A stretch of DNA of 64,000 nt from Haliclona indistincta. Taxonomy: Eukaryota > Porifera > Demospongiae > Haplosclerida > Chalinidae. The notes beneath the pieces are model-generated. The model saw nothing but the letters and a program-made list of their open reading frames with translations. It was not told the origin of the DNA and made no database searches. Position numbers and translations under genes: made by a program. The stretch's first letter is position 1. Every line of letters begins with the position of its first letter. Location of the stretch: NCBI GenBank assembly GCA_964017065.1, contig OZ024785.1, forward strand, positions 3,820,588 through 3,884,587. Direction: 5' to 3'. Below are positions 7,117 to 63,904 of the stretch, in pieces.

Positions 7117-9096
7117 ATGAAGCCTCGAGTTCTTGCTATTGGCCATGGTTTATCGTTGGAATCTCTGACTGTAGCTCTCTTCTGCATTTGGATTATGTCC
7201 AGAACTGCTCATTCTGCAGGTATGTTAGTAACAAATTATACACAAGCACAGTAAAAGCTTTTTGCTGTTAAAAAATTCTCTAACATTTTCAGATGGTCCA
7301 GTGTCAGTGAGTGCACTGGTTGGAGAGAATGCTGTGTTCCACTGTAATGGTAGTGGTATCATTATAGCATGGACAGTGGATGGATTGCTAGGAACTGACA
7401 TCAGAATTGTAGAACGTGGGATAACTTTCCATAATATTATACCATCATCAGGCACAGTACAGTCCACTCTCACTGTACCAGCAACACAAGAGAACAATGG
7501 CACTACTGTACAGTGTATAGTGTTCCCTGGTTCAGTGACCAGCAACAATGCTACGCTGACTGTTCTCCCTGGTGAGCTGTAAACTGTATGCACAATGTAT
7601 GTATGCATGCATATGCAGGTATTGATCCAGTTGTCAATGTGAGGTTCACTCCATCATTCAGTGCTGTACTGTGGGATCCTCCAGCAACTGCTGGTGTACT
7701 CAGTGGTCTCTCCTACAATGTTACTGTAATGAACAACAACACTGGTCAAGTAGTTGTCAACAACACTACCAACAATAATAACTATGTGTTGGATATTCAG
7801 CCGTGCATGTACTACATAGCTAATGTGACAGCATTCTCATCTCAGCATCATAGTGAGAGTGTATTTACTGGAGGGAGAGCACCAGGAGGTGAGTGAGAGG
7901 CCATATGTACAATGAGATAATCAATAAATTATGATAGCAGTAATCAATAAATTATGATAGCAGTAAAATTATTATTTCTACAGAGTACTATGATCTTATG
8001 GAAGTATCAACAGCTCTGATAGTTAGCTACAATATCACTCATTTTGCTGTGATTTTTGCTATTGATATACACCAGGTGAAATGTTATATCACTGTTTGGG
8101 ATTAAAATCATATTGTTTTGTATCCATATATAGCATGGTGTCCCGGTCTGTCCTGATCAAGAGCTGTTGCTTGTAACATATCCAACTGCAAACAGTTCAG
8201 ATAAAAGTAGACATGCTAAATTGTGAAGACGGCTCTATTCAGTATGTCTAGTTGATTATTTTCTACTATGATCTTTTCAATTTGCTCACGATAGGCTCTT
8301 ATACTACTCAGACCTGTAATGTATCCAGTGACCAGCACACTAGCTCCATACTAGTGGAGTGTACATTTGTCATCAATTCAACAGCACCAGCGATTGTAGT
8401 GATACAAGATGACCAGAGTCAATATACCATCAACAAGACACTGCAGAGACTGCTGCAGGATAGTGATAAAGGATCTGTCAACATTACTGGTCTACCAGCA
8501 GGAGAGTATAGTGTGAGAGTGTATGACAACAGTCCAGCTACTGACAGCACTAGTGCTGCATATCAGCATTCTCAGTTAATACACATTATGGGACTACCTA
8601 CTGGTTCTACAGGAAGTAACGTTTTATCCACCATTAATGCAGCAAATATTTCAGGTAATGAGTTATTGATACATGTATCTGTTATCAATAGCCATCTTTT
8701 ATCCAAGTTTATTTAGTAGTCACATCAACACCACAACATGAGAATGCAAACAGCAACAACACAATCATACTAACTTCCACCATTACTACTGGACTAGTAG
8801 TGTTGATACTGCTTGTTACACTGATTACTAGTATAATAGTGTGCTCAACTGTTGCTCTGAGAAAAAAGCACGCAGGTACGCATAATTCTATGTACTCGTT
8901 TTATATTTTATTTTCTATAGGAGGTGCAACAGGTGTTATAGATCATGTACCAGTTGATGATAATCCTGCTTACATCACAATGAAGAGGATCACCTTGAAC
9001 AAGAACACTGCTTATGAGACTGTTAATATGAAAGACTGTCATTATGAGACTGTCACTGCAGCTGGCGATTATGAAACTGTTGACATAATGTTATGA
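7117..9096 (+). pseudogene. Receptor C: Ig-FN3-TM receptor with short YETV tail; one ectodomain exon damaged
   Basis: Exons: 7117-7219 (signal peptide), 7293-7571 (Ig), 7619-7888 (FN3), 7984-8075, 8134-8241, 8295-8654 (conserved domain 5), 8717-8875 (TM), 8921-9096 (tail, stop TGA). The Ig exon has the FHC...W...C core. FN3 has VLWDPP and ends in TAFSS. The TM helix is followed by a basic anchor. The tail has PAYITM (a YxxM motif), TAYETV (ITSM pattern TxYxxV), HYETV and DYETV. Exon 8134-8241 is 108 bases against 196 and 211 in D and H. It has lost about 90-100 bases and its frame stops at TGA near 8222. Exons 4 and 5 together form a 1-0-1 phase cassette, so skipping both restores an open receptor. 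It could therefore be a live gene with altered splicing rather than dead. Confidence 0.75.
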
Positions 9097-9280
9097 AAAT
9101 TACTGAATATTAATTAGTGTAGCTCTGCGGCTTGATCACCTGACTAGGTTAGACTCATGCTCGATCGACGGTCTTACTCTAGCTACTTTCATGGACTCTT
9201 GCTACGAAGAGTTACACGTATTGAGCATAACTTGAAGCTGCAACGGCGCTGCAGGGATTTGATGAGCTGATAACTTAAAT

Positions 9281-12200
9281 ATGATCTTATACTCGTTGTT
9301 CCATTCTCTAGCACTCATATGCATAAAGGCTCCAGTGTCAGTGAGTGCACTGGTTGGAGAGAATGCTCTGTTCCACTGCAATGGTAGTGGTTTCACTGTA
9401 CTGTGGTTAGTGGATGGATTACCGAGCATGAGTTCTGGCAATATAGCTCGAGGAATAAGTGATTATACAGAATCATCAGGCATAGTACAGTCCACTCTCA
9501 CTGTACCAGCAACACTAGTGAACAATGGCACTACATGTACTGTACAGTGTGTGATCTATCCTGGTGAGGTGACCAGCAACAATGCTACACTGACTGTTCT
9601 CCCTATACCTGGTGAGCTGTGAAAGACTTTGTGTTGTACTTTAACAATCAATTCACTGATACAGGTATTGGTCCAGTTGTCAATGTAAGATTCATTTCAT
9701 CATTCAGCATTGTTGCATGGAATCCTCTGGTGTACTCAGTGATCTCTCCTATATAGTGATTGTGATGAACAACAACACTGGTCAAGTGATTTTAAACGAA
9801 ACTACTAACAACACCAACCATACACTGCCAATGATTAAAATTAACCTGTGTCAAAGCTACACTATTATTGTGACAGCATTCTCATCTCAGCAACAAAGTG
9901 ATAAGTGTCAAAGCTGTATTGAACATACCAGGAGGTAAGCGAGAATGGTGCTAGTGAATGCCAGCCTGTAGTTATTATTTATGTCATCTCTATAATGAAT
10001 GTGTGTGCTCTGTCTGTCACTATTTTTAGAATACTATGATCTATTCAATGTGTCAGTGGGTAAGTTAGTCAACCACAATCCCACTTACTTGGAAATTACT
10101 TTCAGTATTTACATACAACAGGTAGTTTAGCTATTCAGTCTACTGTACAAGGATTGTAATGACAATACTTGTTTTACTTAGTACGGTGTTCTTCTTTGTC
10201 CTGATCAAGAGCTGCTGATTGAGACTTTGCCAGCATGTTCTGTGAACTATGGAATGAATCTCACAAAACATGGTTCACTGATCCGCACATTCCTTGTTAG
10301 GAAAGGCTATCATTGTGCAGCTAATATTAGCATCGTTGCCAATGACAAAGTAGTTGATGTAAAGACAGTTCTATTCAGTAAGTCATGACTAGTGTTGTGT
10401 TTAATCTGGTCATACTGTGACAGGTTCCTATAATGTTCAAGACTGTGATGTATCCAGTGACCAGCACACTAGCTCCATACTAGTGGAGTGTACATTTGCC
10501 ATCAATTCAACAGCACCAGGGATTGTAGTGATACAAGATGACCAGAGTCAATACACCATCAACAAGACACTGCAGAGACTGCTGCAGGATAGTGATAAAG
10601 GATCTGTCAACATTACTGGTCTACCAGCAGGAGAGTATAGTGTGAGAGTGTATGACAACATGTATAAGAAAGACGACCAACCTGCATACGAACAACCGCA
10701 GTCTCACATAGTCATTATGGCACTACCTTAATCAAGTTCGCCTGTTGTTACAGGTACATAATAGTTGTGGTAGTACATGTATCTCTTTGCTATTGATGTT
10801 TACATTTTGTATCTCATAACAGAAACATCCCTTGCTGAAAGTATTATATCATCGACCATGCAGCACAGTAGTGTCTCTGCTACCAGTACACCTGGTCTAC
10901 CAAGTATGTTTAGCATCAGTGTAATGTGTGGTTAGTGTTGTGTATTCCTCTATAGATAATTCTGCTGTCACCATCGGTCTCACTACTACATGTGTTTTCG
11001 TAGTTGTTGTTGTTGCTATTATTGTAATAGCAATTATCTCATGTTATCTATTGAGAAAGTATAGGCCAGGTAATGACTCACATTCTTATCAATAACAATT
11101 ACTATCAACTATGTTTGTTTCTGTATAGGTAGTTACAATGCAATAAGTAGCAGGTTAGTTTATGGATATTGTATACTATTGAGTACTTGTATCTCATCCT
11201 ATAGTTTTACTACACCCAAACAACCTGTAAGTTACCATGTGATTGCACTTGTACTACACACACATAGTATTCATGGGTTTGTGAAGCAATTATGACTCTA
11301 GTCTAGGATTGGTCCACTTTATAAATGTATCTATCAACAGTCTATTGAGCAAGGACCATTTGACACTGCTGCATCATCCCAACTAGTACTGGTACGAGAT
11401 GCTACTGTCAAGAAGCTAACTACTGACAATACTGTGACTACACAATCTGAGGATGAAACTGTGGTGTCCCAGGAGCAGCAGGGATCAACCCATAACCCTA
11501 CTAACCCATCAGCAGCTGTATCAGAACCAAATGCAGCCATTACACAAACTGAAAAACCCATAACTCTATCATTAGTAGACAATTTCATGCAATCCCAAGG
11601 GCAAGAATCACGCTATGCCGATCCTCTGGACCATCACTCTACTAATCCACCAGGTCCTCTTCTATCTGTTAAACCAGTACAATATGCTACTGTCAAGGAA
11701 CAAACTGATAACACTGTAACTGCACAACCTAAGGTCAGTCATTTGTGTACTGCTAGACGGCGTTGAGTTATAATTTTGGAACAGGGATTCCCACCTACTG
11801 TGGAGACCGATGATGAGAAATGGTCTATGACTCCATTACAGGTACATGCAGGTGTCTTTTTTGTAGATTTTATTCACAGTCATTTGTGTACTAAAACAGG
11901 AACAGGGAGCTCCTTCACAACCTGCTGAGCCCACTCAAAAACTGGCTCACCCTACACAGGTAATCTTCTTTGTTGTTTGATAAAGCATTTCCTTGACGAT
12001 ATTCACATCTAGCATACATGTGAGGATTCATCTGGTTATCACTCAGCCAGTGCACACATTGTGGGTGTTTCTGGTATGTCTACTGACCCTAAAGATGAGG
12101 CAGTGTATGTACAACCATCAACTGACCGTGCCCAATACCCACAACACCAGACCACTAACTCTGTGCTTGCCTCTAATACACCACAAGGTATGCTATTACT

Positions 12201-13444
12201 ATTATTGAGGGAATTCCCAGTGCTTTGATACAGTATGCACATACACATGTATACTTTACTTGTACATAATCCTGAATATTATGTGATTTATTAGAACACA
12301 GAAAAGAGTCTGCTGGTCAGCATACTTACTTTCACAAGAAATCAGAGGAATGTGATACTTCTACTGATCGTAAGCTACACATATGTTTTGTCATCCATTG
12401 CTGATTTCATTATTTTACTCAGCACGAGTACAGCATGTCATTTCTAGTCCAGTTAGTACCAACACTCCTGGTGTGACTAGAGGTGGTGGAATGTATGCTG
12501 AACCTACCAGTGAAGATTGCCATAGTGGATTTGTTCTGCACTTTCCGTGTCTGAAAGAGAATTATGAAAAATTATCACCTTCAGAGGATGAAGAAGCTTT
12601 AATGTCACCTAACCATGTCTCACTAAAACAAGACCAACTAATGTTTGCAGTCAATGCAGTGGTATGTGTAGCTATGCTCATAGTTACTTGATTTGATCTA
12701 ATGCTTTTGTAATCCTCTGCACTGTACAGATGATGATTAAAAGCAATAAAACTAAAAAGGCTCTGTTGCCCACATTCTTGGTGAGTATGTAATTTGTTCC
12801 TGGTCTCAATACATTGATCATTAGAACAACTGCAATAATTATGGGTGGGTGGGTGCGTTCAAGTAGCAAGTGGTATGTCTGACAGAAATAGATTACATTA
12901 GGACTGCATTAGGATAGAATCATAGAGAATTGACCTCTCCTAGTATATCAGTATAGAGTTGACCACTCCTTCTATTCATGTGTTCCTAGTCTCATGTAAC
13001 AGTTTCATTATGTGAACCTGGAGCCCATGTATGTGTGAACTGAACTGTAAATAATGTACATCACCAATACTGTTTGGATATAATGATGCTTTTTTATTTA
13101 CCAGCAACCAGAGGAACCACTCCATGATGAAGTCCACCACTCTGGTAATCCACAGTATCAGGCCGACACTGTCAGTCTACAGTCAGCTTTTAATGACGTC
13201 ATCGGACCTCAGGAGGAGTATGCTAATCACTGGCATTCTACTGACCCACCTGTCGTACAGGACACTGATCCTTTGAATTGCCAAGCATTTGGCACTCATA
13301 CTCATACTGTGTATGAATATGAAAACAAAAATCTTCGCAGAAGAAATATTTTGGTTAGTGCATTGTTAGTATGAAGATTGGTATTTGCTAATTATATTTT
13401 GTTTTATTTTTCTACAGTCTGAGTTGGCATCTTATGGGGCTTGA
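9281..13444 (+). pseudogene. Receptor D: Ig-FN3-TM receptor with long ITIM tail; frameshift and nonsense codon in ectodomain
   Basis: Exons: 9281-9611, 9665-9934, 10030-10121, 10182-10377, 10424-10740 or so, 10823-10903 (Thr/Ser stalk), 10956-11069 (TM), 11129-11153, 11205-11226, 11341-11733, 11785-11841, 11900-11959, 12013-12187, 12295-12369, 12423-12661, 12730-12780, 13105-13353, 13418-13444. The first exon reads a plausible signal peptide straight into Ig, unlike the separate signal exons of C, F, G and H. The tail has VQYATV (ITIM pattern) in the 11341 exon, proline-rich spacers and an SPSEDEE acidic block. Lesions: the FN3 exon lacks about 10 bases after 9718 relative to paralogues, with an in-frame TAG soon after, and regains phase by an extra base near its end. 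Domain 5 has a TAA at 10729-10731 in place of a Ser codon. Tail exons are all open and in phase, so decay is recent or alternative splicing rescues them. Confidence 0.75.
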
Positions 13445-15404: not shown

Positions 15405-16370
15405 CTATGCAATATATCCAGAATGTCGAATGTAACCAGTGCAGTCTTCTTGTGTAACACTTGCAAATGCCATTGCTACTAAAAGTCTAGCAGATGACGT
15501 AGTAAGAAATATGTGTTCATTAGCTCGAATAAATGATTTGACTTTTGAAAAAACCTCTTCTAGGGGCATCAAATCAGGACTATATGGAGGAAGATAGCGT
15601 ATAAGTGCACCTGAGCTGGTTATGATGTCATAAATACAATCCAAATGATGTATAGATGCATTGTCCAGTATTACTACTGATCGACTGTTCGTTCCATTGA
15701 ACGGTTGCAGTGTAGGTACTAGTGTAGTGCGAACAAAGTCCTCAAAAACCTCTCCATCAACAGTGCCCTCATGAATGTACACATCTTCAACTCCTCGTGT
15801 GCTCATTACTCCAATAGCTGATACTCTCTTCCCTCCTATTCGCAGCTGATGATCGACTGGAGTCATGCCTCTGAGACCATAGCCGTAGCGACGTATATTA
15901 TTGCGACGATCAAATCCTGTCTCATCCAGCCATACAAACATGTCTGGGTCTAAAAAGTCTATCTCAGCAGCAAATTCTCCACGTCGTTCTTCGCTTCGTT
16001 GGATGGCTATCTTTCTGAGCTTCTGACGGGTAAAGCCAAGGCGATGAACTGTCCTGCAGATGGTTGATAAGTGTACATCTCTTCCACTGGCTTCAAATAG
16101 TGCATCACGCAGTTCAGTCAAGTACATGCTAGGGTTATCCAGCAAGCAGTGCATTAGTGTGACTTGCTCAAATTCATCCAACAGCTTGTCCGGTCCATGG
16201 TGGTATTCAGTAGGCGATACAGATCCGCTTGCGTAAAATCTCGACGTGAAACGGCCGACGGTACTCTCGCTAACACACAGCAGGTCCGCGATCTCGCTCG
16301 GACTCTTATCTTTAGCGATTCGAAGCCAAACAATTCGCCAACGCAGATCGTCTGAATAAGCTGTTGGCAT
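15405..16370 (-). CDS. DDE transposase, IS630/Tc1/mariner superfamily
   Basis: 321 aa, intact single exon. Residues about 1-60 form a helix-turn-helix typical of the superfamily (DDLRWRIVWLR, then SPSEIADLLCVSESTVGRF). A second HTH region follows to about residue 125. Catalytic motifs: D in FVWLDETGF, D in VVILDNASIH, and E in YLPPYSPDLMPLEEVF. There are 34 residues between the second Asp and the Glu, giving DD34E. The length is normal for the superfamily and there is no stop or frameshift, so the enzyme may be active. I could not define certain terminal inverted repeats. The sequences near 14845-14885 and 16405-16445 share only weak inverted similarity. Confidence 0.9.
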   Translation of the reverse strand: MPTAYSDDLRWRIVWLRIAKDKSPSEIADLLCVSESTVGRFTSRFYASGSVSPTEYHHGPDKLLDEFEQVTLMHCLLDNPSMYLTELRDALFEASGRDVHLSTICRTVHRLGFTRQKLRKIAIQRSEERRGEFAAEIDFLDPDMFVWLDETGFDRRNNIRRYGYGLRGMTPVDHQLRIGGKRVSAIGVMSTRGVEDVYIHEGTVDGEVFEDFVRTTLVPTLQPFNGTNSRSVVILDNASIHHLDCIYDIITSSGALIRYLPPYSPDLMPLEEVFSKVKSFIRANEHIFLTTSSARLLVAMAFASVTQEDCTGYIRHSGYIA

Positions 16371-18247
16371 AGTTGTGAAAACAGCAGGACAACCATTTAA
16401 AACACGTGCAAATTAGGAAATAGGCTGTGACCGTCTACTAGGGCGCAGCCCATTTCACAATTTCCAATTTTCGATTTACAATTTCCTAAGTCAAGCAACT
16501 TGCAAAGGTCTGTATATATGTCACGCTTAGGAATGCAATCAGTCCATACGGCGAGGCCCTTACTGTAGTATTGTATGCGAGGGCCACGAGGGCAGCAATT
16601 GCAAGGCCCCGGGATTGCACGTTCTTTCATAACTACTCGACGTTCTTTCATAACTCGACTACAAAATGGACGATTCGCCTTCCCATCTCGCTTTCCATGC
16701 ACCGCCCTCATCAGCGATACTGTGACTGATGCTGCAGCAAGAACCAGGGCTTTGGCGCGGGAGGGGAAGCGCAGACAGCGTGAACTTGAAGAGAGACACC
16801 ACTGCTACTCGGTAAAAACATAATCCCGCGCTGTATTTACTCTCCATTACAAATGATAGAGCAAACAGACTTTCACACCTTCGAATTCGTGAAAGGGCTA
16901 ACAAAAGACTGTCTACAGAAACTGAAGAACAGGTTATGATTCTTGACTCAATGCTAAGACATTTCATGCTTATGACTCCTCCTTTTTCCCGGACACTGTT
17001 AAACTATGGAACCTGCTGATCATGAGATTGTCCCTGCAGCAGATTGTCTCCGCTTCATCGATCCCTCTCTGTTTTCAAGAGAGATATTTGTGGCTATCGA
17101 TCTAATTTAATCTAGTAACTTATGTTGTTTGTCTTTTCTTTTGGTTGGTACCATGCATTATTATTATTAATGAATTTTATTTCCGTGCGAGGCAAATACA
17201 TGCTGTAAGTATACCTAGTAATGTTTTAACTACAATCTGTCTTATTATGAAAACATTCAAGTTCACTGTTTGATCTTGATTGTATTGCTACTCTAAATGG
17301 AGCTTATCAAAACATTGTTTCATGATCAGAAAATTCACACATCAACTAGTGTATGCGTATATCTCAATTCAGTTCAAAATAAAAAAATGTGTTGCGATGA
17401 GTAATACTTAGTGTGACAGTATACTAACAGCAGCAATGATTCCTAGGATGGATAATGCAGTGACAGTTTACTGTATGTTACTATAATACAACACTATGTA
17501 CATTGTAAGCAGTTGTCCGATAATAGTAGGTACAGTCCCTGGATCTCAACTAGTGCATTAGCTGTTCCTAAGCTAGTGCACGTGAGCTTCCATGGATGAA
17601 TGAAATAGGTATCAATTATTGCATCATAGTATTTTCTTGCCTACATAACTATTTGTCTTTTTAAATTCACTCTCGCTTTTCTGTTAGAAGGATGAATGCC
17701 ACTAAATCAGGCAATAATTCTGGCTTCTGCTGATTTTTAAAACTGAAAATTGTAGGGATGACTCTTGAAAAAGTAAAGGAACAAGATGGAAAACTGCTTG
17801 CAAATTTAAAGACATCATGCTTGCTGAGACGACATACAACTGACAAATGCGGAATCCTCTTCCTATACCTTTTACAACCGTTAATTACTTCACTAGGGAG
17901 GCACGGTAGTGCCTCCCTTTGTAGGGTTGAATGGAAAAACAAGATGGCGGCTACATACAATGTATTAGCGTTATCTGTGTATAGTAGTACATGCTGCAGC
18001 TGTAAAAGACAGTTTGCTTTCACTCTGTCATTGATATTATAAACGATCATTGAGAACAAGCTGCTGACTGTATAATGTTTAATCTATTTAATGGATTGTG
18101 CATATTGTCAGTGTGCATTCAGTTCAATAGTAGAATGAAGCCAGCATATTAATTGTCTATCTGAATTTTTTTTCTTTTCATCTTAGTCTGGAATTCTTGC
18201 ACAAGTGCAGGTAGGTGAAAAGGTTGCTGCATGCTTGATCACTTTAG
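16371..18247. other. Transposon debris upstream of pseudogene E, with an STPR-like coding remnant
   Basis: An inverted repeat (TTAGGAAAT near 16413 and ATTTCCTAA near 16484) could form a hairpin. Between 16730 and 16960 two short open stretches (TRALAREGKRRQRELEE and ANKRLSTETEEQ) resemble degraded 23-residue STPR repeats like those at 35784. At 17895-17918 lies a perfect 10-bp-arm hairpin (AGGGAGGCAC..GTGCCTCCCT) followed by sequence shared with the repeats at 42880, 43812 and 45884. Confidence 0.5.
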
Positions 18248-19860
18248 CTCTCACAGAGGGTCCAGTGTCAGTGAGTGCACTGGTTGGACAGAATGCTCTG
18301 TTCCACTGTAATGGTAATGGTACACTATTCAATGGGTAGCAGATGAAGTATACGTGACTGATACAGATCATGTTATTGTTGATCGAGGAATTTCTGCAAG
18401 TTTATCAGTATCATCAGGCACAGTACAGTCCACTCTCACTGTACCAGCAACACTAGTGAACAATGGCACTATACTGTACAGTGTATAGTGCATTCTCTGC
18501 TTAGTTCAGTGACTAGCAACAATGCTACTCTGACTTATCTCCCTGGTGAGTTTTCTTACGGAGTCAGACCGTGATTATTATAGTATCTCACTGGTTTTGT
18601 TCTTACAGGTATTGCAATATTTTTAATGTTTTTAAGGTACGCTTCTTTTCCTCCTCGAAAGAGAAGAGTACCACAAAAGGTGGAAAAGTAGATTAGGAAT
18701 GATTGCAAATCAAAAAGAGTTTAGATCAGCTAAAAAGCGAAGAATGGGAATTTGAAGGATAGAATCAAGGCACCGAGCACATGATCAACCAACAGGTGTG
18801 GAGAGAGGTGTTAAATCTTCGGTAACCCCATGTTGTGGACAGGTATGTCATGTTAATTTGATACAGTGAGCTAGCTTTAGTGCATTTCAATGTAGATATA
18901 AAGAGATGAACTTGATACAAGTAAGAAAGGAAACAGTTTCTTAAACGTAATTTACTACATATCTTGTGACATGCTTGAGTCCACATTAATTACCATTGAC
19001 CCTAGATATTTTGTTTATGAATAATTATGATTATAAATTATTTTATCATTATTCAGGGTGCTGAAGCCTCTGGTTGTCCTCTTTTGGTTGATGATTCTAT
19101 AATTGCTGATCCTCCTGCAGCGAAGCGTCTATACCTGCTCCTCTTATCACTGGTCCGCCTGATGTGATAAGTGCATGTGATATTGATATTAAGGAACATG
19201 GTATTGACCGCTATACAGAATGGGCAAGTAAAGGAACCTGTCTATGCTGAATTACAGTACACTCGGGTGCAGGGATTACACTAACCTGTTGGTGTGAGTT
19301 AGCACAAGTTGTTTACTGAAAGTTGTTATGTTCAATTTGTGTTGATGACTGTAACAACAGCTTTTCCCTTCATAGAAGAGCTTTATAACAACATGTTTAT
19401 CCACTATGTGCCTTTGTTTTGATAGTATAGTTACATACACATTGGAAGTATGCACACTCTAAGTATGGCACTGAGACATGCTAATTGTTTTTGCAAAGTT
19501 TATTAATTTTACATTCTAACATGTGTGAGGTCGCTAAGAGTGAAGTCAAACATCCTTGATCTTGTGAAGGATCCTCATCTGGTTACCATTCAGCCAGCTG
19601 TGTGTCAAGTAAAGGTCATCCATCTACTGACGTGACACACCTGAGAGGTTCTATCACCTTCAATTTCCCATACTAATAATTATATTAAATTATGTCAAAG
19701 GTTAACAATGCAGTATAATACTCGACTGGCTATTTAATTATCATCAAGAGGTATGATGGAAACTCTTCACTTATCGTTACTTTTATAATAGATGGTGATG
19801 CTGCTGCTGAGTCCTATGACTTGGTACTGTCACAACCAGTCACAGTGACAATGCTCATAT
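18248..19860 (+). pseudogene. Receptor E: relic of the Ig-FN3-ITIM family
   Basis: The Ig exon is 18248-18546. It starts with the family's constant edge (LTEGPVSVSALVG) but needs one extra base near 18320 to continue into WVADEV, and has a 2-base insertion near 18473 that shifts the second-Cys region. Only the first bases of the FN3 exon follow (GTATTG at 18609). Tail remnants are recognisable: EPVYAELQYT at about 19232-19261, preceded by an AATGGG..AAG start as in gene K's 62838 exon, and a block at about 19568-19620 resembling gene D's 12013 exon (SSGYHSAS). No open transcript can be assembled. Confidence 0.7.
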
Positions 19861-47785: not shown

Positions 47786-50083
47786 GTATTTTTTCTGGTA
47801 AATCAGTTACTGAGAAATTGCAGTCACTTGAGTTGTCTTTCTCAAAAATGCTTACTGACATCGAAAACATCGAAAAGCGCCGGTCTGGATGGTATTACTT
47901 CATGTGTTTTTGGAAAAAAAGCTTCCGTCAAAATCATGTTGATATATTCAACACTTATGATCTTGAAAGTCTTGAGAATGAAGAGATCAAATGTCTTATT
48001 GAGGCTTACAAACGGAAAAGAGATGCATTCATGGAAAGCACAACTGTGCTTGAGTTCCAAGAGGCAGTTTCAAGTACTGCAGAATTTGCTGTTCCTGAAG
48101 AAAAAGAGTGTATTAAAATTGAAGTCTCGAAGAATTGGGCAAAAGAGAAGAAGTTAAAGGATGTCATGTCCTTAGCTCAGAGAGTATTTGGTGATAACTA
48201 TGGATCTCTCATCAGCTTTAATGTGGTACCCAGAATGGAATCATTCGTAGTCTCCTGGTTATTCCCAAAGAGGCTTGAATTTGAGCTGCAAGAACTTGTT
48301 TCGACAAGAAGAGCCGTGTTTCAACTAGAAGATGTGCGCAAGGTGGAGGTTGGAGATTTTACTGTATTGTGAGTTTATGTATAGATAAATACATTAATAA
48401 CAATTTTATACATGTACTTTCAGCACTCATGAATCAAATTGTGAGATCAGGCAAAAATACATAATCAAAGGAATATTTTCCGTACCTTCTCTGGTATTCA
48501 ACAACCATCATTATTACTCTGGTGCTATTACTATTGTTTATTTATGTAGTCATTACTTAAACCAACCACTGAACCAGATGAAATGGTTTCTTTCAGTCAC
48601 TGCTCTGGTTCCTGTTTTGCTTTCCTAAACTACTTGAGCACTCCCTCTACATCACTCCCTTTGTATTCTCCTCTATCTTGTGAGTAAAGAAATCGATATT
48701 ATTTGAAGTTTGATGTGTTTCTTTATTTTACAGTGACTGTAAAGGAACTTGTGAAGGTGTGCAAGAATGTTGATGATTGGTATATGCTTGGTCTACACTT
48801 GCGGCTCTCAGTGAAACAGTTGGATCATATTCGCAGAAACTATTCTCATCTTGGAATAGAGCCAATGAAGAGAATGATGTTTGATGTTTGGTTAAAGAGC
48901 ACTCCCGGTGCATCATGGGTTGACCTGATCACAGCTTTGAGAGAAATTGGTGAAGACTATGTCGCCTGTATGATTGATGTACATAAAATATCAGGTAATA
49001 ATTATTATAGGTAAAAATTGTAAATGCTCTAGCAAATTTATATGACACATGGTATACCATTAGTATTGTTTCTTCTCTAGCAATCAGACCATATTGTTGG
49101 GAAAATTCCTTTTCCTTTGAAGATGATGTTCAATGTGAGTAAAAATATACTAATTATATAGCTACATGAATTTTGAAGATTGTACCTATTCATTTCTTAC
49201 TAACTTTGAATCAGTGATTTGCTGTGCAACTGCTCATTATGAATTTTGCTCTTTTAGATTTAATGAACAAAGAAAAATCATTTCGTTGCATTGTTCTATC
49301 TTTGCTAAACGTAAGTCTCATAAGACAAGTTATGGTTTTTCTATCATTAAGTTTTATCTTGTGTTATTAGACAATTGGTTCTTGCCAGAAAACAAGTTGC
49401 CGTGTAAGACATTGTTGGTCTTCTCATGAGGTGTTAAAAGTGGCTTATCATCACAAATGGCCTTTCAAAGATGAGGGTAAGTTATTCTTCTGTTTATATG
49501 TTCCTAGCTTTAGAAGCAGCACTGGTATTTAAGGCGCTATACATGTAGTTATGGATTCTGATAGCAGCACTGCTGATGATGAACATTGTGGTGATGTTTT
49601 TAGGCAAATAATGTAGACAAAGTGCTTATGTTTGTGTGAGTGCTTGTGGCTATCCAAGACATCCACAGTCTATGTACTAATGAATATTATTATTAAAAAT
49701 TAATGTGTTTGTGAGAGCACACTCAGATGAATGGTGTTTACATTACCCTGTGATGCACCAGTGTCTAAGCAGAGATCGGAAATGGAGTAAAAGAAGCGAG
49801 CAATTTTACATAGTTTACATTGTAGGTTAGATATCAGAGATTAGGGATCTATCATCTTCGTGATGTGGAACCCTTTTAAGGAGACAAAAATTTGTGGTTT
49901 GCTGTTAATAGGCATTTAGTGGGTACTATAGAATTCCTCATAATTATTATAACATTGCTAATGTACCTGTAGTGCTGACGTGCAAGTTCAAATGTGTGTA
50001 ATTTTTTTCACTTTTCTTTAGGTACTACAGATGAGAACACCCTGCTATCAAAGAACTGCAGTCATGACATGTTAGTTATCTAA
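47786..50083 (+). CDS. Death-domain protein, or the intracellular end of receptor H
   Basis: Exons: 47786-48368, 48424-48440, 48734-48994, 49081-49134, 49258-49310, 49371-49476, 50022-50083 (stop TAA). All junctions are GT..AG and phases agree, including a 17-base micro-exon that joins GDFTVF to THESNLTVKELV. The first exon encodes about 195 residues: a charged helical region, then a beta-rich segment around MESFVVSWLFP. The 48734 exon is a Death domain (VKELVKVCKNVDDWYMLGL..LRLSVKQLDHI..TPGASWVDLITALREIG), a helical bundle that recruits other Death-domain proteins in apoptotic and NF-kB signalling. The first exon starts in phase 1, matching the donor at 40342 of gene H. Alternatively translation starts at the ATG at 47743 without that splice. 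The short exons after the Death domain are less certain. Confidence 0.7.
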
Positions 50084-52664: not shown

Positions 52665-54398
52665 ATGAATGTCCTTTCATTTGAATCTACGTTAGTGATG
52701 CTCTTCTGCTGTATCTGGAGCATCGTTCGTTCAGTTGTTGGTATGAACATATATACAAATAATCCGTGTTGTGAAATAGCACTCACAGAGGGTCCAGTGT
52801 CAGCGAGTGTACTGGTTGGAGAGAATGCCCTGTTCCACTGTAATGGTAGTGGAGCGAGTATTTTGTGGATAGTGGATGGATTATATGCAACTGATATTAG
52901 CATAACTGCAAGAGGAATTACTCAACACATAATGACGTCATCAGGCACAGTACAGTCCACTCTCACTGTACCAGCAACACTAGTGAACAATGGCACTACT
53001 GTACAGTGTATGCTCTATCCTGGTTCAATGACCAGCAGCACTGCTACACTATTTATTCTCCCTGGTGAGATTAAGTTAGTTGCTAATATATAATTTATTG
53101 TCAATACATGCATGAATGCACATTGTAGGTATTGGACGAGTTGTCAATGTGAGGTTCACTCCATTATTCGTCAATGTACTGTGGGATCCTCCAGCAACTG
53201 CTGGTGTACTCAGTGGTCTCTCCTATATAGTGATTGTGGTGAACAACAACACTGGTCAAGTGATTGTCAGTGACACTACCAACAGCACCATCTATCCACT
53301 ATACCAGTTGTCCAGCCATGTCAGTACTACACAGCTAATGTGACAGCATTCTCATCTCAACATCGTAGTGAGAGTGTGATTACTGGACAGAGAACACCAG
53401 GAGGTATGTATGTAGTTTGATATGCATGATGCTGGGTTATAGCAGTACATTCCCTTCATTCTGTTACATAATGCAATACAGAGTACTACAAGTTATCCAG
53501 TGGGTCACAGTTTACAGTAGTTAGCTACAACATGACTCACTGTGCTGTTGTTATTGCAATCGATGTAAAACAAGTGAGTTATTGATTACCTATTGAATCA
53601 GGTCATAATTATCATGACATACAATATTATGATAGAACATTCATGAGGTTGTTTGTCCTAACCAAAGACTGGTGTTTGTAATTCATCCAAATTCAAGCAG
53701 TTCAAACACAAGCACAAGCACTGAGGTTACCATAACACAATCTGGTGTGATGAACTACACAGTTCTTGTTAGAAGAACTGTCATTGTGCAGCTGATATTA
53801 AGATCATTGCGGACGACATAACTGAAGTTGACAAACAGACAAATCTATTCAGTAAGTCATTAGTTGAAGTTGTGTTGTGTTTAATCTGGTCATACTGTGA
53901 CAGGTTCCTATAATGTTCAAGACTGTGATGTATCCAGTGACCAGCACACTAGCTCCATACTAGTGGAGTGTACATTTGCCATCAATTCAACAGCACCAGG
54001 GATTGTAGTGATACAAGATGACCAGAGTCAATATACCATCAACAAGACACTGCAAAGACTGCTGCTGCAGGATAGTGATAAAGGATCTGTCAACATTACT
54101 GGTCTACCAGCAGGAGAGTATAGTGTGAGTGTATGACAACAGTCCAGCTACTGACAGCACTAGTGCTGCATATCAGCATTCTCAGTTAATACACATTATG
54201 GAACTACCTAGTCCTTATCGTTCAAGTATTATGTCATCTATGATAGTCCCAACAGGTATGTACATATAGCTACTTAACTAATGAGTTTAATCATTGTTTT
54301 TATTTCAGAATCTTCTGTCTCCTATTTGCTACCTTCAAGTTCCTTTTTGTTCATCCACACTAGTATCACTCCTGGAGTGGTGCTTGAATCAACAACAG
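52665..54398 (+). pseudogene. Receptor J: Ig-FN3 family pseudogene with three frameshifts and no TM
   Basis: Exons: 52665-52740 (signal peptide), 52780-53064 (Ig, intact), 53129-53403 (FN3), 53482-53573, 53636-53851, 53904-54255 (domain 5), 54309-54398 (stalk). The 39-base interval between the first two exons is also open, so it may be read through. Compared with paralogues the FN3 exon has 2 extra bases near 53302 (TATA for TA), the domain-4 exon lacks 1 base near 53781, and domain 5 has an extra CTG codon and a 2-base loss near 54127 that brings a stop at 54134-54136. Stalk sequence (PS..SSIMSS, then SSVSYL) is closest to gene K. The TM and tail are missing, cut off by the repeats that start after 54450. 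J looks like a broken duplicate of K. Confidence 0.85.
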
Positions 54399-55207: not shown

Positions 55208-58200
55208 TTTTTTTTTTTTTTTTGATTAATAAATAAAATATAATACAGTACAAGTGATGATGATTATACATCAATTTATGATAACAGAAGGAATATTAAT
55301 GATTAAACTATAGATTAAAGTTTAAATCGAGATGTTTGCTTCAGCTGTGATGAGGTCAACTGAAGCAGCTGATTTGATGGCATGGCCCCTGGATGAGCGG
55401 GCCCCACGAAGACACTGGATAGCAGAGCGAAGGAGGCTGAAAGAGAGTTGACATCTTAGCCAGTTCAGAGTTGTACTGTAAGGCTTGTCCCATTTGTCAG
55501 CAAGCATTGAGGCAAGTCTTTTATAGAAAACTGTGGCTTCTTTTGCCATGCCACCACTTGCAGAGAGAACAAGAGGAGTGAAAGAGGCATGTTCAACATG
55601 TTGTATCCTTTGGCTGTAATTTCTTCTCTTTTCCATCTCATGCTTCCTGAAACACTTGTCTAAAGGTATTTGAGAGTTCGAAGGAGCATGAGGGTTGAAG
55701 ACACGAACATCAAAAAAACACTTTTCAGATCTTCCTCCCCAAAAACCATTGGCAGCGATGTCGAGTCTGGCTCCGTCAGTGGTGTTAGTAGACCTGCTTG
55801 TGAACACTTCTCCTGTCAAAGTTTGAAGGACTGGCTCAACACGAACATCATTGCAGACTTCAGTTAGCAGTTGGGCAGTTAAGTCACGGATTTTATTGTG
55901 TCTTAGTGATGGAAAGCCGCCTTTGTTGCAGGAGAGAGCATGCTCAACAGAGAAGGAAGAACCACACTCGCAGTTTGTTGGTGATCTTGAAGGGGTCCAT
56001 CCATACCGTAAAGCAAGGGCATCAGAGAAAGCACCCTTATGGAGGCTGAAACCGTGTTCTTCAATGGGGAGTGTGGTCAACCAGCTAGAGGCACCTTTTT
56101 CTTCAGCAAGGATTAGCGCTCTCTTGATAGATGCTGAAAGAGAGGGCTTGAGAGAGATAGCAGTAGCCTTAGATCGCTCTAAACGTTCTTTTTTGATTTG
56201 AGCCTTGGCATCTAGCTGATCTTGTAAAGCGGAGACAGAGTAAACTCCGTCTTTGGAGAGGATTAGCTTTTTTAGAGGAGCAGTAACCAGCAAAGAGGCA
56301 GCATATTCGCTTTCAGCCTGAGAGACAGGGTTTGGAATACCAAGACCTCCATTCCTTGCTGGCAGAGCAAATAAGTTTCTCATTGAGTCACAGGGTGGAG
56401 GGCGACTAGTGATGTTTGGGATAAGGTCTGATCTGATTATGTCTTCAAGGCGCTGCAAGTGATTTCCTATGTCTGGCGTGGTTCTGGACAAGTATGTCCA
56501 CTTGCTAGACAAACCATGTGTAAGGGCAGAATAGGCAGCATGAGGCTGAGTAGATGCAATGGTAGAGAGCAGCTTTAGCTCGGTAGCCCATTTTAGAACC
56601 TTTTCTGAGACAAATCGGCTTGTGTAATCATCGGAACCAAGGGGAGAGCCGAGATATGGTCTGCCTTCGGAGGTGACATTGACGTTTGTTCCATCAAATG
56701 CTTTTGCGGCAGTAGAAACACAATCGCTTTTGGTGACAAGCCAAGTCTTGGAAGGATTGGGATAATAGCCAAAACTCGGTCCTAGACAGCATAGCTCATT
56801 CCACCATTCACGAAGATTGGCTAGCTTCCCCGAAGCAGAGGCATCGTCAGCATACCACACTTGTTGTACAGAGTCGGGTAGGTTACGGATAAGTGGAACA
56901 GTGGCAATTGCATACATTGGCATAGCCAACGGGTCTCCTTGTGTTGTACCTTCTTGGGAGAGAATTATATCTCCATCAATGAAGAGGTCAGAAGGGGCTC
57001 GGTACATGTTAATCAGAGGAGTAGCCATAGGGGGACAGAGAGAAATGATGTTAGTATAAGGGCAGACTGTCTATTGAGGTTGTTAAATGCATTTGTAGCA
57101 TCGACTAAAAGCACCGCCTCAGTTTTGTCATCAAGAAAGGATTGACGAACAGAGTGTACGGCAGCCTCACAACCAGCAATCTGACCTGCACAAAGTTGAA
57201 GTGAGCCAGCTGCATCTTGGATGTCGCTCCGGATGATGGCGAGGATTGATTTGGCGATTATCCGGCGGACTGTCTCACCAATGCCAATGGGACGGACACC
57301 TGGGCACTTATCTAGAGCAATCAGTCTGCAGGCGAAGAGGGGACTAGAGACGATGGGGTCTACAAGGGAAGTGCAGAGACGCTTTGTAACATTTGCTAGA
57401 GAATGACACAGAGAAGATGAGGCAGACTTGAAGGCAGTGCACAGCCTACGCCAAGCATAGGCATCTAAGCCTGAGGGACCAGCAGCACCTTTAGTCTTTA
57501 AGGCAATTTTGCGAATCAGTGGAGCATCGATTCCATCAAAGAGGATTGGGTGGACTTCAGGAGGGACAGAATCAAGAGAAGAGGCAGCAGTTGCTGGTTT
57601 AGGAAGGGGGTGCTTGCTGATTAAAACATCTCTTACGGTGGTACTGTTAGATGAAGATTCTGAAATCTTGTCATCAATGTGGAGCACCCCGCCTTTACCA
57701 TTGTTAGAGAGAAGGTCAAGAGCAGCATGTGTCTTTCCTTTAAACATTAAGTTGGCAAAGGAGCGAGAGATTTGGTGATCAGATGGACCGGAGTGGAATT
57801 TAGGTAACCTCTGTTGTAGAGATCTGCCCTCTTTAACCAGTGAGAGGAGGTCGCCACATTTCTAACTCTTCATACGCCTCTCTAGACAGGCAATGTGCTC
57901 CTTTGTTTTGGATCTTTTGTGAGGATTTTGTAAGAGTAGAATTGGTAGAACCATGGCAGCCATAAGAGCAGTTGATTCAATAGCAGAGCCCTCAGCAAAG
58001 GCACTGTATAACCTGGATAGTTCTGTAACGAAAGATTTTCCAGCGTTTAACAGAGGAATCTTAAAGCAGTTCTTCTTCCAATGTACAACTTCATCATATG
58101 TATCTTTGAGCAGATCATCATACGACTTATCATCAGTAGAATGAGTGGGCGAGCTGGGCGGAGAGTTTGGTCGCGGGCTATCAGGTGGAGCTGGTAGAGT

Positions 58201-58632
58201 GCAACTGACCAACGGAGAGACAGTGTTGGTATAGGAGAAAACTGGCGCATTTAAGTCAGTGAAAGCACCTAGTCCGCGTGAGGAGAAGGGAAGGGAGAAT
58301 AGGGGTGCTTTGGTTGCAGCTGCAAGCGGCGATTTGAAAACTGAGAATGGCGGTAACGGTCTTGAGGCAGGTAGAGACGAAGACAGTACAGAGATAGGTT
58401 GGAGAGAGTCACTATCAGGCGGGGAAGATGACTGTGAGAGTAGGGGAGACGAGGAAGGTGAAACCTCGGCGGAGGGGATATCATCTGTTGTAGCTGTTTG
58501 GCGGGTATCGGTGCTAGTAATGTTTGAACATGATCCTAAGCGACTGGGAAGGCAGCTCTGACAATGAATGCCTGCTTTAACACACGAGCAGTTCCTGCAG
58601 CGCCCGGTTTTGTTGCATTTACAGCACGTCAT
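55208..58632 (-). mobile_element. Non-LTR retrotransposon, RLE type, nearly intact
   Basis: One long minus-strand frame in three pieces. 58632-57862 starts with a Cys-rich motif (CCKCNKTGRCRNCSC) and a Ser/Pro-rich linker. After an in-frame TAG at 57862-57864 the same frame continues to 57013, through KTKGAAGPSGLDAYAWRRL and LLVDATNAFNNLNR. After a one-base frameshift near 57035 the last piece (to 55322) carries QGDPLAMPMYA, the RT catalytic WYADDASASG, a zinc-knuckle-like CECGSSFSVEHALSC, and a PD-(D/E)xK-like endonuclease core (ARLDIAANGFWG..FFDVRVFNP). A T-run at 55208-55223 on the plus strand is the poly-A tail and marks the 3' end. Only two lesions separate it from an open element of about 1100 residues. 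R2/NeSL-like clades share this layout; the exact clade is not determined. Confidence 0.85.
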
Positions 58633-58748
58633 TCTAAACCGATTCTAGTCATTCTAAACCGATCATACATAGATAGATAGAATTCTCCTCAGCACTCGCG
58701 TTGTGCGCGCGCGTACAGAATTACTATAAAGGCTTGTTTGTAGTCAGT

Positions 58749-60557: not shown

Positions 60558-63500
60558 ATGCTGTCAATGTCAATAACATTGATTCGTATTACCAGTGCTT
60601 TGGCTAGCTTGTCATTAGCATCTCAGAGCGGTAAGTTCTTCGTTTTGCTAACGTTGCTGGACTAGCTGTTACACGCCGGGCTGCACTGCCGCGTCTATAC
60701 GCTTGTTTTTTTCTGTGTATAGCACTCTGTCTTACAGAAGGTCCAATATCTGTGTATCTACTGGTTGTAGAGGACGTTCTTTTCCACTGCAATGGTATTG
60801 GAGCAAGTATAGTTTGGAAATTGAATGGATCTTTAGCAACTGACTCTATCATTGGAATCACTCAGCACACAGTATCATCATCAGGCACAGTACAGTCCAC
60901 TCTCACTGTACCAGCAACACTAGTGAACAATGGCACTACTGTACAGTGTGTGATCTATCCTGATGCAGTTACCAGCAACACTGCTACACTGACTGTTCTC
61001 CCTATACCTGGTGAGCTGTGCAGGACTAATGTACTGATAACATATCATACTATCCTATATTGTACAGGTATTGGACAGGTTCGTAATGTCAGGTTCACTT
61101 CATCACTCAGTGACGTACAATGGGATCCTCCATTGACTGCTCTGAGTGGTCTCATGTATAACGTCACTACGATCAACATGGACACTGGTCAAATTGTTGT
61201 CAATAAAACTACCAACAACACCTCCTGTCCTCTACCTACTCTTCAACTGTGTCAAAACTACACTGTTAATGTGACAGCATTCTCATCTCAGCAACAAGGT
61301 GATGGTGTGGCTACTGGACCTCCAGGAAGTGAGTTTTTTTGGGCTGTGTATGTACTTTGTCAGTGGCTGTGTTTTATTATTATTAGATCACTATCAGTTT
61401 AAGACTATGTCACAGAAGATTATTTTCAGAGAATCTTCAGCTGTTGAATTCTTCATCAAACTACATTTAATGGTATAATAGATTACTTGCCACTGAAAAT
61501 TTTAAATTATAGTTTATTTCCAGGTATCAGGTGTGCCATGTCCTGATCAGAGACTAACAGCTCAGTCGTACCCTCAATCCAACACATCTGATATCACTAA
61601 CCATCCTGAGCTAGTGATAATGAGCAGTGGAGATATTGTATACTCCATCACTACTGGTATTGAGAGGAAGCAACACTACACAGCTACTATCAGCCTCGTT
61701 GGTAATGAAGGGATTGTACAAGAGTTGCCTTTAACATTCAGTGAGTTAGTCTTGTGTTACTTTACTATTATTTTTGATGATGATACTCATGATAAAGGTA
61801 CGTTTGCCGTTCAAGACTGTGATGTATCCAGTGACCAGCACACTAGCTCCATACTAGTGGAGTGTACATTTGCCATCAATTCAACAGCACCAGGGATTGT
61901 AGTGATACAAGATGACCAGAGTCAATATACCATCAACAAGACACTGCAGAGACTGCTGCAGGATAGTGATAAAGGATCTGTCAACATTACTGGTCTACCA
62001 GCAGGAGAGTATAGTGTGAGAGTGTATGACAACAGTCCAGCTACTGACAACACTAGTGCTGCATATCAGCATTCTCAGTTAATACACATTATGGGACTAC
62101 CTAGTCCTTATCCTTCAAGTATTATGTCATCTATCACACTCCCATCAGGTATGTATAGCTACTTAACTAATGAATTTAATCATTGTTTTCATTTCAGGAT
62201 CTTCTGTCTCCTATTTGATGCCTTTAAACTCCCCTTTGTTGAACAGCACTAGTATCACTCCCGGTGTAATACTTGAATCAACAACAGGTAGCTTTTTTAC
62301 TGCAGATTTGATTATGTGTTGTTTTACACAGCTCCCATCTCTGCTTTAGTTGGAATTGCAGTTGGTGTAATCATTACAATTATCATTTTCCTTGTGGTGG
62401 TGATGCCGGTTGTTATCTTTGTCATTATGCGTGCTCAAAGAAAGACCAGATTAAGTAATGTACCAACTTTGGTTTACTTCATTATGCTGTTCATTTTGTT
62501 GCTTACAGTTTCAGTACAATGGACTCGAGAAGAAGATGACAGGTTTGTCATGTGTTCATTGCTAGTGAGTTAGCTGTCACATGAGTGTGCCTTTTGTGTT
62601 GTAGATACCAAGAGCTGAACATTAAACAGGTAGGATGTTTTGAGACATGCATAGTCCACGTCTTTCTGGTTTTCATTGTTGTTATGCAATCTATAGTTCT
62701 AATAGTAGTGTAAGTGTGGTCAAGATAATGAGCCAAAAGTGTGTCACTGTCAACACCCTAAACATAAGACTTCCTGGGTGCTATCATGTATATGTCTGTT
62801 CAAAATGATACTTTTCACTGACTAACTGTTGGTACAGAATGGGGAGCCAAAGGAACCAGTCTGTGCTGATCTTCATCACTCTACTAATTCACCAGCTCCT
62901 CCTCTACCTGTTGAACCAGTACAATGTGCTACTGTCAAGGAACAACCTGACAACACTGAGACTACACAGACTGAGGAAAACAAGGTTAGCTACCACCACC
63001 AGGCCCTGCACAACAGGTCTATTTCTGCTGTGTTTGTACTTACACAGTTATGTGAAGGCCACCTGGCTATCACTTTCAGTGTTTATGTAATGTTTGTTAT
63101 TATAAGGCATCAGAAACATTAATTTTATCAAAACTTTTTGTCAGCGGATAATCATTTAAAAGCCTGAATGTGGGCATTTATAATTATTATTTTATTTTGA
63201 TCCCAAATTCCATGTCATTACACAATTGGACAGCATGTATTTCAGACAGTTTTTTGTACAAGTTAAAACAGTGAAGGCGGTGTGTAGTGGCAACTTGTAG
63301 CCACTGAATAGTAACCTGGATTTTGTGAGTGACTGGTCTGCCGCTAACGTGAGCTGTATATAAACAGGGTTCAGACTCGGTTATACACAGCTCACGTTAG
63401 TACAGTGTTCTTATGCCATAAGTCACAGTATAAAATACAATTAATACAGGGAAACTGTCTCATACCAAATGCGCACACATTGCCGCCTCTTTCTCCAGGA

Positions 63501-63904
63501 CCAGAAGCTTTCAGGGATATTGCTGTCCACCACCGGTTGGTACATAGGTAGGCGTTTGCTAGCAGCACTAAATGAAGAGATAGAAACAATCGTCCAATAA
63601 TACATACTTCCGAACACGTCACTTGAAGGCGAATTCCAGCATGGTCGTAGAAGCGGCAGACCATGCAGTCACTCACAAAATCCAGGTTACTATTCAGTGG
63701 CTGTTTTAACTTGTACAAAAACTACATGCCGTCCGAAAATTGGTCTACTCTACATAACGTGCATGTTTAAATTGTAGTAATTAATTTTTTGTTAATATCT
63801 CATTGTTACCACATGACAAATGGTGTTATCAAGTGTGAACCATTATCTATTCAATATCACAGGAGCAGGAACCAGTTTATGCTGAGGTCCATCACTTCAA
63901 CACT
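60558..63904 (+). CDS. Receptor K: open Ig-FN3-TM receptor, long tail with ITIM tyrosines replaced by Cys (3' end outside window)
   Basis: Exons: 60558-60630, 60738-61010, 61068-61328, 61387-61472, 61524-61740, 61798-62148, 62198-62287 (stalk), 62332-62454 (TM), 62509-62542, 62605-62629, 62838-62984, 63863-63904, continuing beyond the window (574 codons, no stop). Residues 1-24 are a signal peptide, 25-115 Ig, 116-202 FN3, 232-303 domain 4 (almost identical to gene G), 304-420 domain 5, 451-491 TM. The main tail exon reads EPVCADLHHS and VQCATVKEQ, where relatives have EPVYADL and VQYATV, so both signalling tyrosines are Cys through TAT to TGT changes. EPVYAEV in the next exon keeps its Tyr. 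Further tail exons must follow downstream. The intron after 62984 contains a MITE. Confidence 0.8.
63245..63735. repeat. MITE with about 90-bp inverted arms in a tail intron of gene K
   Basis: Left arm (CAGTTTTTTGTACAAGTTAA.. to GTCTGCCGCT near 63344) and right arm (AGCGGCAGAC.. to TTGTACAAAAACT near 63723) are inverted copies. The left arm has an extra 25 bases near 63275. A second inverted pair sits inside (CTAACGTGAGCTGT near 63348 and its complement near 63400). Confidence 0.85.

Follow-up and report, generated by a model that had tools for sequence, protein, structure and literature searches.

We analysed a stretch of 64,000 nucleotides (the window) from the sponge Haliclona indistincta, which holds part of a large multigene family of putative single-pass receptors. 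The window lies on contig OZ024785.1 at C3:3820588-3884587 in a 144-Mb genome of 46 contigs. A full-length member is predicted to comprise a signal peptide (SP), an immunoglobulin (Ig) domain, a fibronectin type III (FN3) domain, a two-exon module (exons 4 and 5, here e4 and e5), an FN3-like domain here called D6 (earlier 'domain 5'), a transmembrane segment (TM) and a cytoplasmic tail with tyrosine motifs. A preliminary description of this DNA reported at least eight head-to-tail copies and the tail of a further one (A), and this was borne out by a profile search, by an unseeded comparison of open frames and by genome-wide recurrence. The profile search of the window found eight Ig exons (in copies C, D, E, F, G, H, J and K), seven FN3, three e4, six e5 and six D6 exons, 100% of them on the + strand and in a repeating order (Table 1). 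Because the profile seeds were exons of the window copies themselves, the resulting E-values are not independent; the unseeded all-against-all comparison recovered the same exon groups at E<=1e-4, and D6 and Ig queries found the same exons again across the genome.

Extent and content of the array

The array is real, as described, and the window is not its whole extent but about 6% of it. Among the best 150 scored of 202 candidates for the D6 query, at least 104 pieces (103 distinct exons or fragments after merging) fall within C3:2.852-3.982 Mb, an array length of 1.13 Mb. Among these listed matches 93 pieces are on the + strand and 11 on the - strand, the median spacing is 7.0 kb, and identity to the D6 of copy K is >=90% in 95 of the 104 pieces and >=95% in 74. 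Satellites among the same best 150 lie on C4 (11), at C3:16.2 Mb (8), and on C6 (13), C5 (6), C7 (3), C9 (2), C10 (2) and C1 (1). The Ig query returned 284 candidates, of which the best 150 were scored, at 58-88% identity; the D6 and Ig genome counts are minimum figures and include some fragments. The C3 array also contains a second D6 subfamily, which is more distant (about 56% identity to a type-B probe). We read 54 D6-bearing copies: 47 have Ig, FN3 and e5 exons <=1.8 kb upstream, and in 32 all four exons (Ig, FN3, e5 and D6) are open. Two stretches, L032 (C1:16.374-16.377 Mb) and L033 (C3:2.870-2.873 Mb), score equally in the D6 and the Ig search and share their e5, with 742 differences over 3285 bases in an ungapped whole-stretch comparison; this pair is either a recent inter-chromosomal copy or an assembly duplicate.

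Not every copy has all the parts previously ascribed to them, and G is the sole uninterrupted eight-exon gene in the window, with GT-AG at all junctions and phases 1-1-1-0-1-1-1. Copies H and K have open frames from the first ATG exon to the end of the TM, F is truncated, and the other four (C, D, E and J) carry disruptions; the described mixture of intact genes, truncated forms and pseudogenes thus holds. Each of G, H and K has a strong TM, 10-13 N-glycosylation sequons and a hydrophobic N-terminus, weakest in K. Exons e4 and e5 form a 1-1 phase unit, and therefore skipping both would keep the frame. Tail exons with tyrosine motifs are present in A, C, D, G, H and K. In K, two tail motifs read CADL and CATV in place of YADL and YATV (TAT to TGT), and this copy is possibly a decoy or signalling-dead receptor. 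A signal exon was not identified for D, and no gene part of E beyond its Ig exon and no D6, TM or tail of F were recognised.

Table 1. Receptor gene copies in the window (positions counted from its first nucleotide)
Feature	Positions	Strand	Exons	Remarks
Copy A	1-1742	+	Tail exons alone, remainder upstream of window	Open frames; EPVYADLHRS, VQYATV, LVYTDL, VQYATA, proline-rich PPAPPLP; class-2 tail matches at C3:3820840-3820947
Copy C	7117-9096	+	SP 7117-7219, Ig 7293-7571, FN3 7619-7888, e4 7984-8075, e5 8134-8241, D6 8295-8654, TM 8717-8875, class-1 tail 8921-9096	Disrupted in e5 (deletion, in-frame stop); tail NPAYITM, TAYETV, HYETV, DYETV
Copy D	9326-12688	+	Ig 9326-9607, FN3 9665-9934, e4 10030-10121, e5 10182-10377, D6 10424-10753, TM near 11000, class-2 tail about 11302-12688	Disrupted (FN3 frameshift); tail ESRYADP, VQYATV
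Copy E	18256-18547	+	Ig	Single frame-shifted exon
Copy F	21293-21894	+	Ig 21293-21571, FN3 21628-21894	Open frames, truncated
Copy G	23701-25696	+	SP 23701-23788, Ig 23843-24118, FN3 24168-24443, e4 24547-24617, e5 24680-24896, D6 24943-25296, TM 25352-25501, class-1 tail 25569-25696	Intact, 8 exons, 519 aa; tail NPAYITA, DDYETV
Homogenised D6 core of G	24979-25194	+		Alignment vs H 29489-29698
Copy H	27176-39031	+	SP 27176-27248, Ig 27315-27590, FN3 28738-29010, e4 29062-29150, e5 29204-29414, D6 29465-29806, linker 29999-30094, TM 30152-30271, class-2 tail frames 34326-34824 and perhaps 35049-35315, 38615-39031	493 aa open through TM; tail placed by motifs within open frames, candidate splicing
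Copy J	52665-54360	+	SP 52665-52740, Ig 52789-53064, FN3 53129-53403, e4 53482-53573, e5 53636-53851, D6 53904-54255	Disrupted: FN3 frameshift; D6 frameshift by 2-base deletion; reverse-transcriptase-like insertion downstream
Copy K	60558-63920	+	SP 60558-60630, Ig 60738-61010, FN3 61068-61328, e4 61432-61472 (short), e5 61524-61740, D6 61798-62148, linker 62198-62287, TM 62332-62454, tail exon in open frame 62826-63119, another at ~63860	476 aa open through TM; tail PVCADL, VQCATV, then EPVYAEV; class-2 tail matches C3:3883437-3883562 and 3884805-3884906, running beyond window

Domains of the predicted receptors

The Ig reading of exon 2 is made because weak exon-level matches, invariant cysteines and tryptophan, and a fold model coincide. 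Pfam ig was matched at E<=0.01 by 18 of the 55 members (member 1 lies below the curated cut-off), and C18, C74 and W27 are invariant in the family alignment. The AlphaFold model (pLDDT 90.6) has seven strands, A' 6-9, B 13-21, C 24-29, D 45-50, E 54-62, F 71-77 and G 86-91, the letters being our own assignment. With the cysteines on the predicted B and F strands and the tryptophan on strand C, exon 2 is placed in the immunoglobulin superfamily. Exon 3 appears to encode an FN3 domain, as the whole K protein scores 26.6 bits for fn3 (PF00041), above the cut-off of 25; exon-level matches are weaker (C, 20.5 bits; H, 13.6 bits), and the whole H protein matched no Ig or FN3 family in Pfam. The view that this is a tandem family of Ig-FN3 receptors is upheld.

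Structure prediction, proposed as a check on the domains, gave the Ig fold for exon 2 and, for D6, a sandwich of seven strands (pLDDT 86.1) that most resembles FN3 domains. The best PDB structure match of D6 was the Fn3 domain of ROBO1 (E 1.8e-3, probability 1.00, TM-scores 0.61/0.69), with some Ig-type (VHH) chains close behind and no match at E<=0.001. Member 1 of D6 matched no Pfam family over cut-off, and no PDB sequence match was found for D6.

Divergence is a mosaic by exon

The new observation made here is that divergence between copies is a mosaic by exon. In the C3 array the median synonymous divergence (dS) was 0.361 for Ig (39 exons), 0.470 for FN3 (36), 0.836 for e4 (11), 1.135 for e5 (35) and 0.047 for D6 (38), the last value being biased downward because most copies were fetched as best D6 matches. 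The window sample was not picked in this way. There, the proportion of synonymous differences (pS) was 0.301 in Ig (7 exons), 0.319 in FN3 (6) and 0.559 in e5 (4); in four D6 exons (C, G, H and K) the core had a pS of 0.010 and the exon flanks on either side of it 0.276. The D6 cores of G and H differ by three mismatches and one 6-base gap over ~215 bases, and their exon ends differ strongly.

We compared pairs of genes belonging to different e5 classes (25 genes). Over 173 pairs, pS was 0.633 in e5 and 0.055 in D6, a figure that drops three members of the second D6 subfamily; with these kept, D6 pS was 0.172 over 239 pairs. Such pairs of low D6 pS led us to reject recent duplication alone as the explanation for the identity of D6. 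Among 24 C3 genes, D6 distance was correlated neither with Ig (r = 0.06) nor with FN3 distance (r = -0.05) and weakly with e5 distance (r = 0.24), and no exon's divergence followed genomic distance (r from -0.08 to 0.08). Where the D6 exon begins, nucleotide coverage among 43 copies drops from 0.85 to 0.34, and where it ends coverage drops to 0.26. Across six mutually dissimilar upstream backgrounds, identity was 1.00 ~25 bases inside the D6 exon and was lost after ~170 bases, the first 20 positions being forced by the fixed anchor itself.

Within the Ig exon, the block SGTVQSTLTVPATLVNNGTTVQC is near-invariant (pS 0.085, proportion of nonsynonymous differences (pN) 0.036) and the block preceding it, VDGLLATDSSIVDRGITDHTVSS, is hypervariable (pS 0.452, pN 0.357); the ratio of their pS values is 5.4 (bootstrap 3.8-8.2, 39 copies). 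On the Ig model the hypervariable block spans C' to D, and the F-G loop forms a second variable stretch. General positive selection on the Ig exon was rejected, as whole-exon dN/dS of 0.40-0.61 gives no general sign of it. The array has the protocadherin-type pattern of a homogenised proximal exon with diverse distal exons, and the divergence is best read as islands of conversion that leave the C'-D patch and the F-G loop to diverge.

Cytoplasmic tails and candidate effectors

Two classes of tail were found. Class-1 tails occupy one exon (NPAYITM...TAYETV; consensus VIDHVPVDDNPAYITMKRITLNKNTAYETV) and are nearly uniform, with pS 0.053 and pN 0.028 in 34 copies. Genome-wide, 132 candidates were obtained, of which we took the best 120 matches. 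Those at C6:10.8-10.97 Mb are 88-94% identical, and the accompanying D6 domains are 51-60% identical to that of K. Between C6 and C3, pS was 0.056-0.153 in the four of six fetched C6 tails fitting the pattern, compared with 0.407 for D6 and 0.392 for Ig. Among 37 tail-exon copies, 14 lie behind mutually dissimilar introns, and identity in these, ~0.3 in the intron, reaches 1.00 as soon as the exon begins. The introns were chosen for dissimilarity, so that the result shows no more than that many backgrounds exist, and the protein pattern used to find the copies fixes most of the first ten amino acids, not their codons. Class-2 tails span several exons, with YADL and VQYATV motifs and proline-rich spacers; of the best 67 matches (of 83 candidates), 61 lie on C3, the other six being on C6 or C7.

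The tails had been described as resembling immunoreceptor tyrosine-based inhibitory and switch motifs (ITIM and ITSM). The tyrosine motifs are real, and strict ITIMs are confined, in the window, to class-2 tails of A, D and H: the pattern [SILV]xYxx[ILV] occurs in the class-2 pieces of A (2), D (1), H (2) and K (0), as VQYATV, LVYTDL, LHYAQV and VLYAAV. By sequence pattern these are putative ITIMs. Class-1 tails in the window carry mainly TxYxxV (ITSM-like), NPxY and YxxM, and 36 distinct class-1 tails of the genome have NPxY in 35, YxxM in 32 and TxYxx[VI] in 30. In 25 distinct tails, which share descent, TxYxx[VI] occurred 24 times against 2.7 after shuffling, and on this pattern the tails are candidate bearers of ITSMs.

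The genome gave at least 90 matches to SH2 domains and at least 199 to protein tyrosine phosphatase (PTP) domains. At C9:7.65 Mb (L065, C9:7649400-7654300) lie two adjacent single-exon SH2-SH2-PTP genes (577 and 564 aa) with a HCSAGIGRTGTF site; for the gene compared, PTPN11/SHP-2 is the best match (E 3.4e-191, residues 2-515), followed by PTPN6/SHP-1. A candidate effector for the tyrosine-motif tails therefore exists in this genome, and the tandem single-exon arrangement suggests duplication after a retrocopy. VQYATV and TAYETV fit recruitment of SHP-2-type phosphatases, and NPAYITM could recruit phosphotyrosine-binding (PTB) proteins or PI3K.

Relatives among public proteins

The D6 profile matched 315 public proteins and the Ig profile 586, with the best 120 listed in each case. 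By sequence markers, the D6 cores of 123 classified proteins form three groups: A (QHTSSIL and LLQD; 37 proteins, 18 linker strings), B (DHTS[S]IL and LQQD; 27 proteins, 16 linker strings) and C (TSYIL; 13 proteins, 11 linker strings), a few of the strings being empty or artefacts of the pattern. The remaining 46 of the 123 carry a single marker, a variant form or no marker. Since cores are uniform within groups and differ between them, and linkers are varied, the groups bear the mark of concerted evolution; 'species', as applied to these groups, is a reading of the sequences. In this genome, 37 of the 54 D6 copies have both A markers, four the first A marker alone, 12 none, one (on C9) the first B marker and 0 both B markers. 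A group-B query found no genome copy with >85% identity over >=99 of 104 residues; shorter, core-weighted matches reached 95%. One public protein, P0001, matches C3:3237924-3238832 with 100% identity along 303 aa and on that identity appears to be from the same species as this genome. Another, P0002, reaches at best 60-69% identity in its longer matches, with 82% in a single exon; it would therefore come from another genome, or from a copy absent from this assembly.

Other features of the window and genome

Between D and E, at window positions 15405-16412 (- strand), is a long open reading frame (ORF) for a DDE transposase (PF13358, E 3.5e-29) with HTH_23. After J, at 55322-58644 (- strand), three adjoining or overlapping ORFs of 582, 282 and 260 aa are reverse-transcriptase-like and include YADD; one piece was scanned and gave no Pfam family above cut-off. 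A 209-aa ORF at 47743-48372 (+ strand) is without Pfam match. Elsewhere, tyrosine-phosphatase exons form dense clusters at C5:0.92-1.04, C5:5.08-5.21, C10:6.1-6.5 and C3:15.6-15.8 Mb; those on C5 and C10 occupy the same intervals as many FN3 exons and probably represent another large receptor expansion. Tandem silicatein-like cathepsins (NIIDCS, NQCGIATDASFP) at C10:4.136-4.149 Mb keep the catalytic cysteine in the two active-site exons read; such a cluster is consistent with a sponge, not diagnostic of one.

Interpretation of the array

We consider it probable that these genes encode diversified recognition receptors with phosphotyrosine tails, in which homogenisation of the protocadherin type is combined with signalling of the Alr or FcoR type. 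The membrane-distal patch of the Ig domain, which lies on one face and differs between genes, is likely to be the part that reads the ligand. The D6 core and the beginning of the tail would be kept near-uniform by repeated gene conversion confined to exons, giving a common chassis of D6 and tail. Engagement would lead to phosphorylation of tail tyrosines and recruitment of SH2 proteins, of which an SHP-2-type phosphatase may damp the response; alternatively, PTB or PI3K proteins may bind. The whole would serve as a repertoire for self or non-self recognition.

This reading needs to be held cautiously, as several results weigh against it. The dN/dS of means is 0.40-0.61 in every exon, and pN exceeds pS in a few short windows alone. 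Strict ITIMs occur in only nine of the 36 distinct class-1 tails, the splicing of the H tail remains provisional, K lacks two tail tyrosines, and the whole G protein matched no Pfam family at E<=0.1. Most D6 loci used for dS were picked as best D6 matches, and 11 copies met incidentally have a D6 pS of 0.322 (0.205 in the eight left without three second-subfamily members); homogenisation is therefore wide but not total. Over 32 four-exon genes including satellites, D6 distance is correlated with that of Ig (r = 0.28, p = 0.025) and of e5 (r = 0.36, permutation p = 0.001; for FN3, r = 0.17, permutation p = 0.089). GC-biased conversion was ruled out, as GC content at third codon positions (GC3) in D6 (0.364) is not raised relative to FN3 (0.363) and little relative to Ig (0.328; e5, 0.331; the Ig block 0.334 and the rest 0.327), and the mark of such conversion in fish protocadherins is therefore absent.

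Other explanations differ in what the repertoire would be for. Instead of serving allorecognition, the receptors may possibly sense microbes or symbionts, as do the SRCR and NLR sets that are expanded in sponges: one scaffold with a patch that varies fits many microbial ligands, whereas ITIM-like tails are more typical of self or missing-self receptors. SRCR and NLR are the expanded sponge sets named in the literature examined, and SRCR, NLR, Ig-like and FN3 genes are reported to be commoner in low- than in high-microbial-abundance sponges (Ryu et al., as cited in PMC6208332). We regard as doubtful a protocadherin-type code of cell adhesion or cell identity, acting in tissue sorting and reaggregation instead of defence. 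It would account for a homogenised D6 core beside diverged outer exons, like the homogenised EC4-EC6 compared with EC1-EC3 in fish protocadherins (PMC1852091). The near-universal NPxY of the tails (35 of 36 distinct class-1 tails) would suit PTB and adhesion signalling, but TxYxxV and VQYATV are also present; moreover, the copies read have their own tail exons, without shared constant exons, and many are broken.

That the array is a decaying, transposon-ridden segmental duplication of passively multiplied receptor relics with little function is very unlikely. Four of the eight window copies are disrupted and one is truncated, dN/dS is 0.40-0.61, and DDE transposase and reverse-transcriptase-like insertions lie in the array; however, four open exons are kept in 32 of the 54 D6-bearing copies, G, H and K have open frames joined by canonical splice sites, and the same Ig pattern recurs in public contigs, including at least one relative not from this genome. 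A bolder version of the receptor reading is an exon-wise cassette system, in which constant exons (D6 core and signalling tail) are copied with exon-exact limits among >100 genes on several chromosomes, giving the receptors a common stalk and signal beside a diversifying Ig patch. Behind 14 dissimilar introns the tail exon is near-identical from the first base on, which would fit copying through spliced RNA and not only homology-limited conversion at the DNA level; we nevertheless think this system unlikely. If it existed, the germline recognition repertoire of sponges would be renewed by exon copying, a mechanism that to our knowledge has not been described for known receptor families.

Comparison with known systems

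Because the array, read as diversified recognition receptors, resembles Hydractinia Alr (PMC11067881, PMC11999971) and Botryllus FcoR, we infer an immune or self-recognition role for it. Alr alleles control colony fusion. Alr proteins are described with several Ig domains, V-set and I-set (PMC11999971), whereas here the domains folded or matched to Pfam comprise one Ig domain with FN3-like domains, in >100 copies with exon-confined homogenisation; the two were compared by description, not by sequence. FcoR is described as a set of type I proteins of 520-610 aa with Ig domains, from 53 loci, alongside an expressed shp-1 homologue (PMC12065747). The likeness lies in type I Ig receptors with ITIM/hemITAM or core YxxI/L/V tails; unlike the genes here, those of FcoR, a chordate system, encode one V Ig, one sushi and two C2 Ig domains, and their products are paired with fester (PMC12065747). 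The whole G, H and K proteins gave no Pfam sushi match at E<=0.1.

KIR, LILR and FCRL and the NITR of fish are tandem Ig-receptor arrays whose ITIM/ITSM tails act through SHP phosphatases; they are vertebrate, are not known to have an FN3-like stalk, and are likened to the array by description. The clustered protocadherins of vertebrates are not known to have ITIM-like tails. They resemble the present genes in a lineage-specific homogenised membrane-proximal ectodomain with diverse outer domains, and differ in their cadherin fold, single large variable exon and raised GC3 in converted parts (PMC1852091), a rise not seen here.

A search of titles and abstract openings, with most subscription journals and supplements outside its scope, found no sponge ITIM-type or Ig/FN3 receptor array among the papers listed. 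The sponge aggregation factor is a secreted proteoglycan core, not an Ig/FN3 transmembrane receptor with a tyrosine tail. Its family is given as a current candidate for sponge allorecognition, and candidates from sponges, cnidarians and ascidians are described as showing no conservation, with ITIM-type signalling linking cnidarians, tunicates and vertebrates (PMC12065747). In a sponge, an Ig/FN3 array that pairs ITIM/ITSM-like tails with SHP-2 effectors would extend that logic to the base of the animals. The exon-confined homogenisation is an unusually clean case of one domain in concerted evolution beside neighbours that are not, and the array would give the self/non-self biology of sponges a concrete, testable locus.

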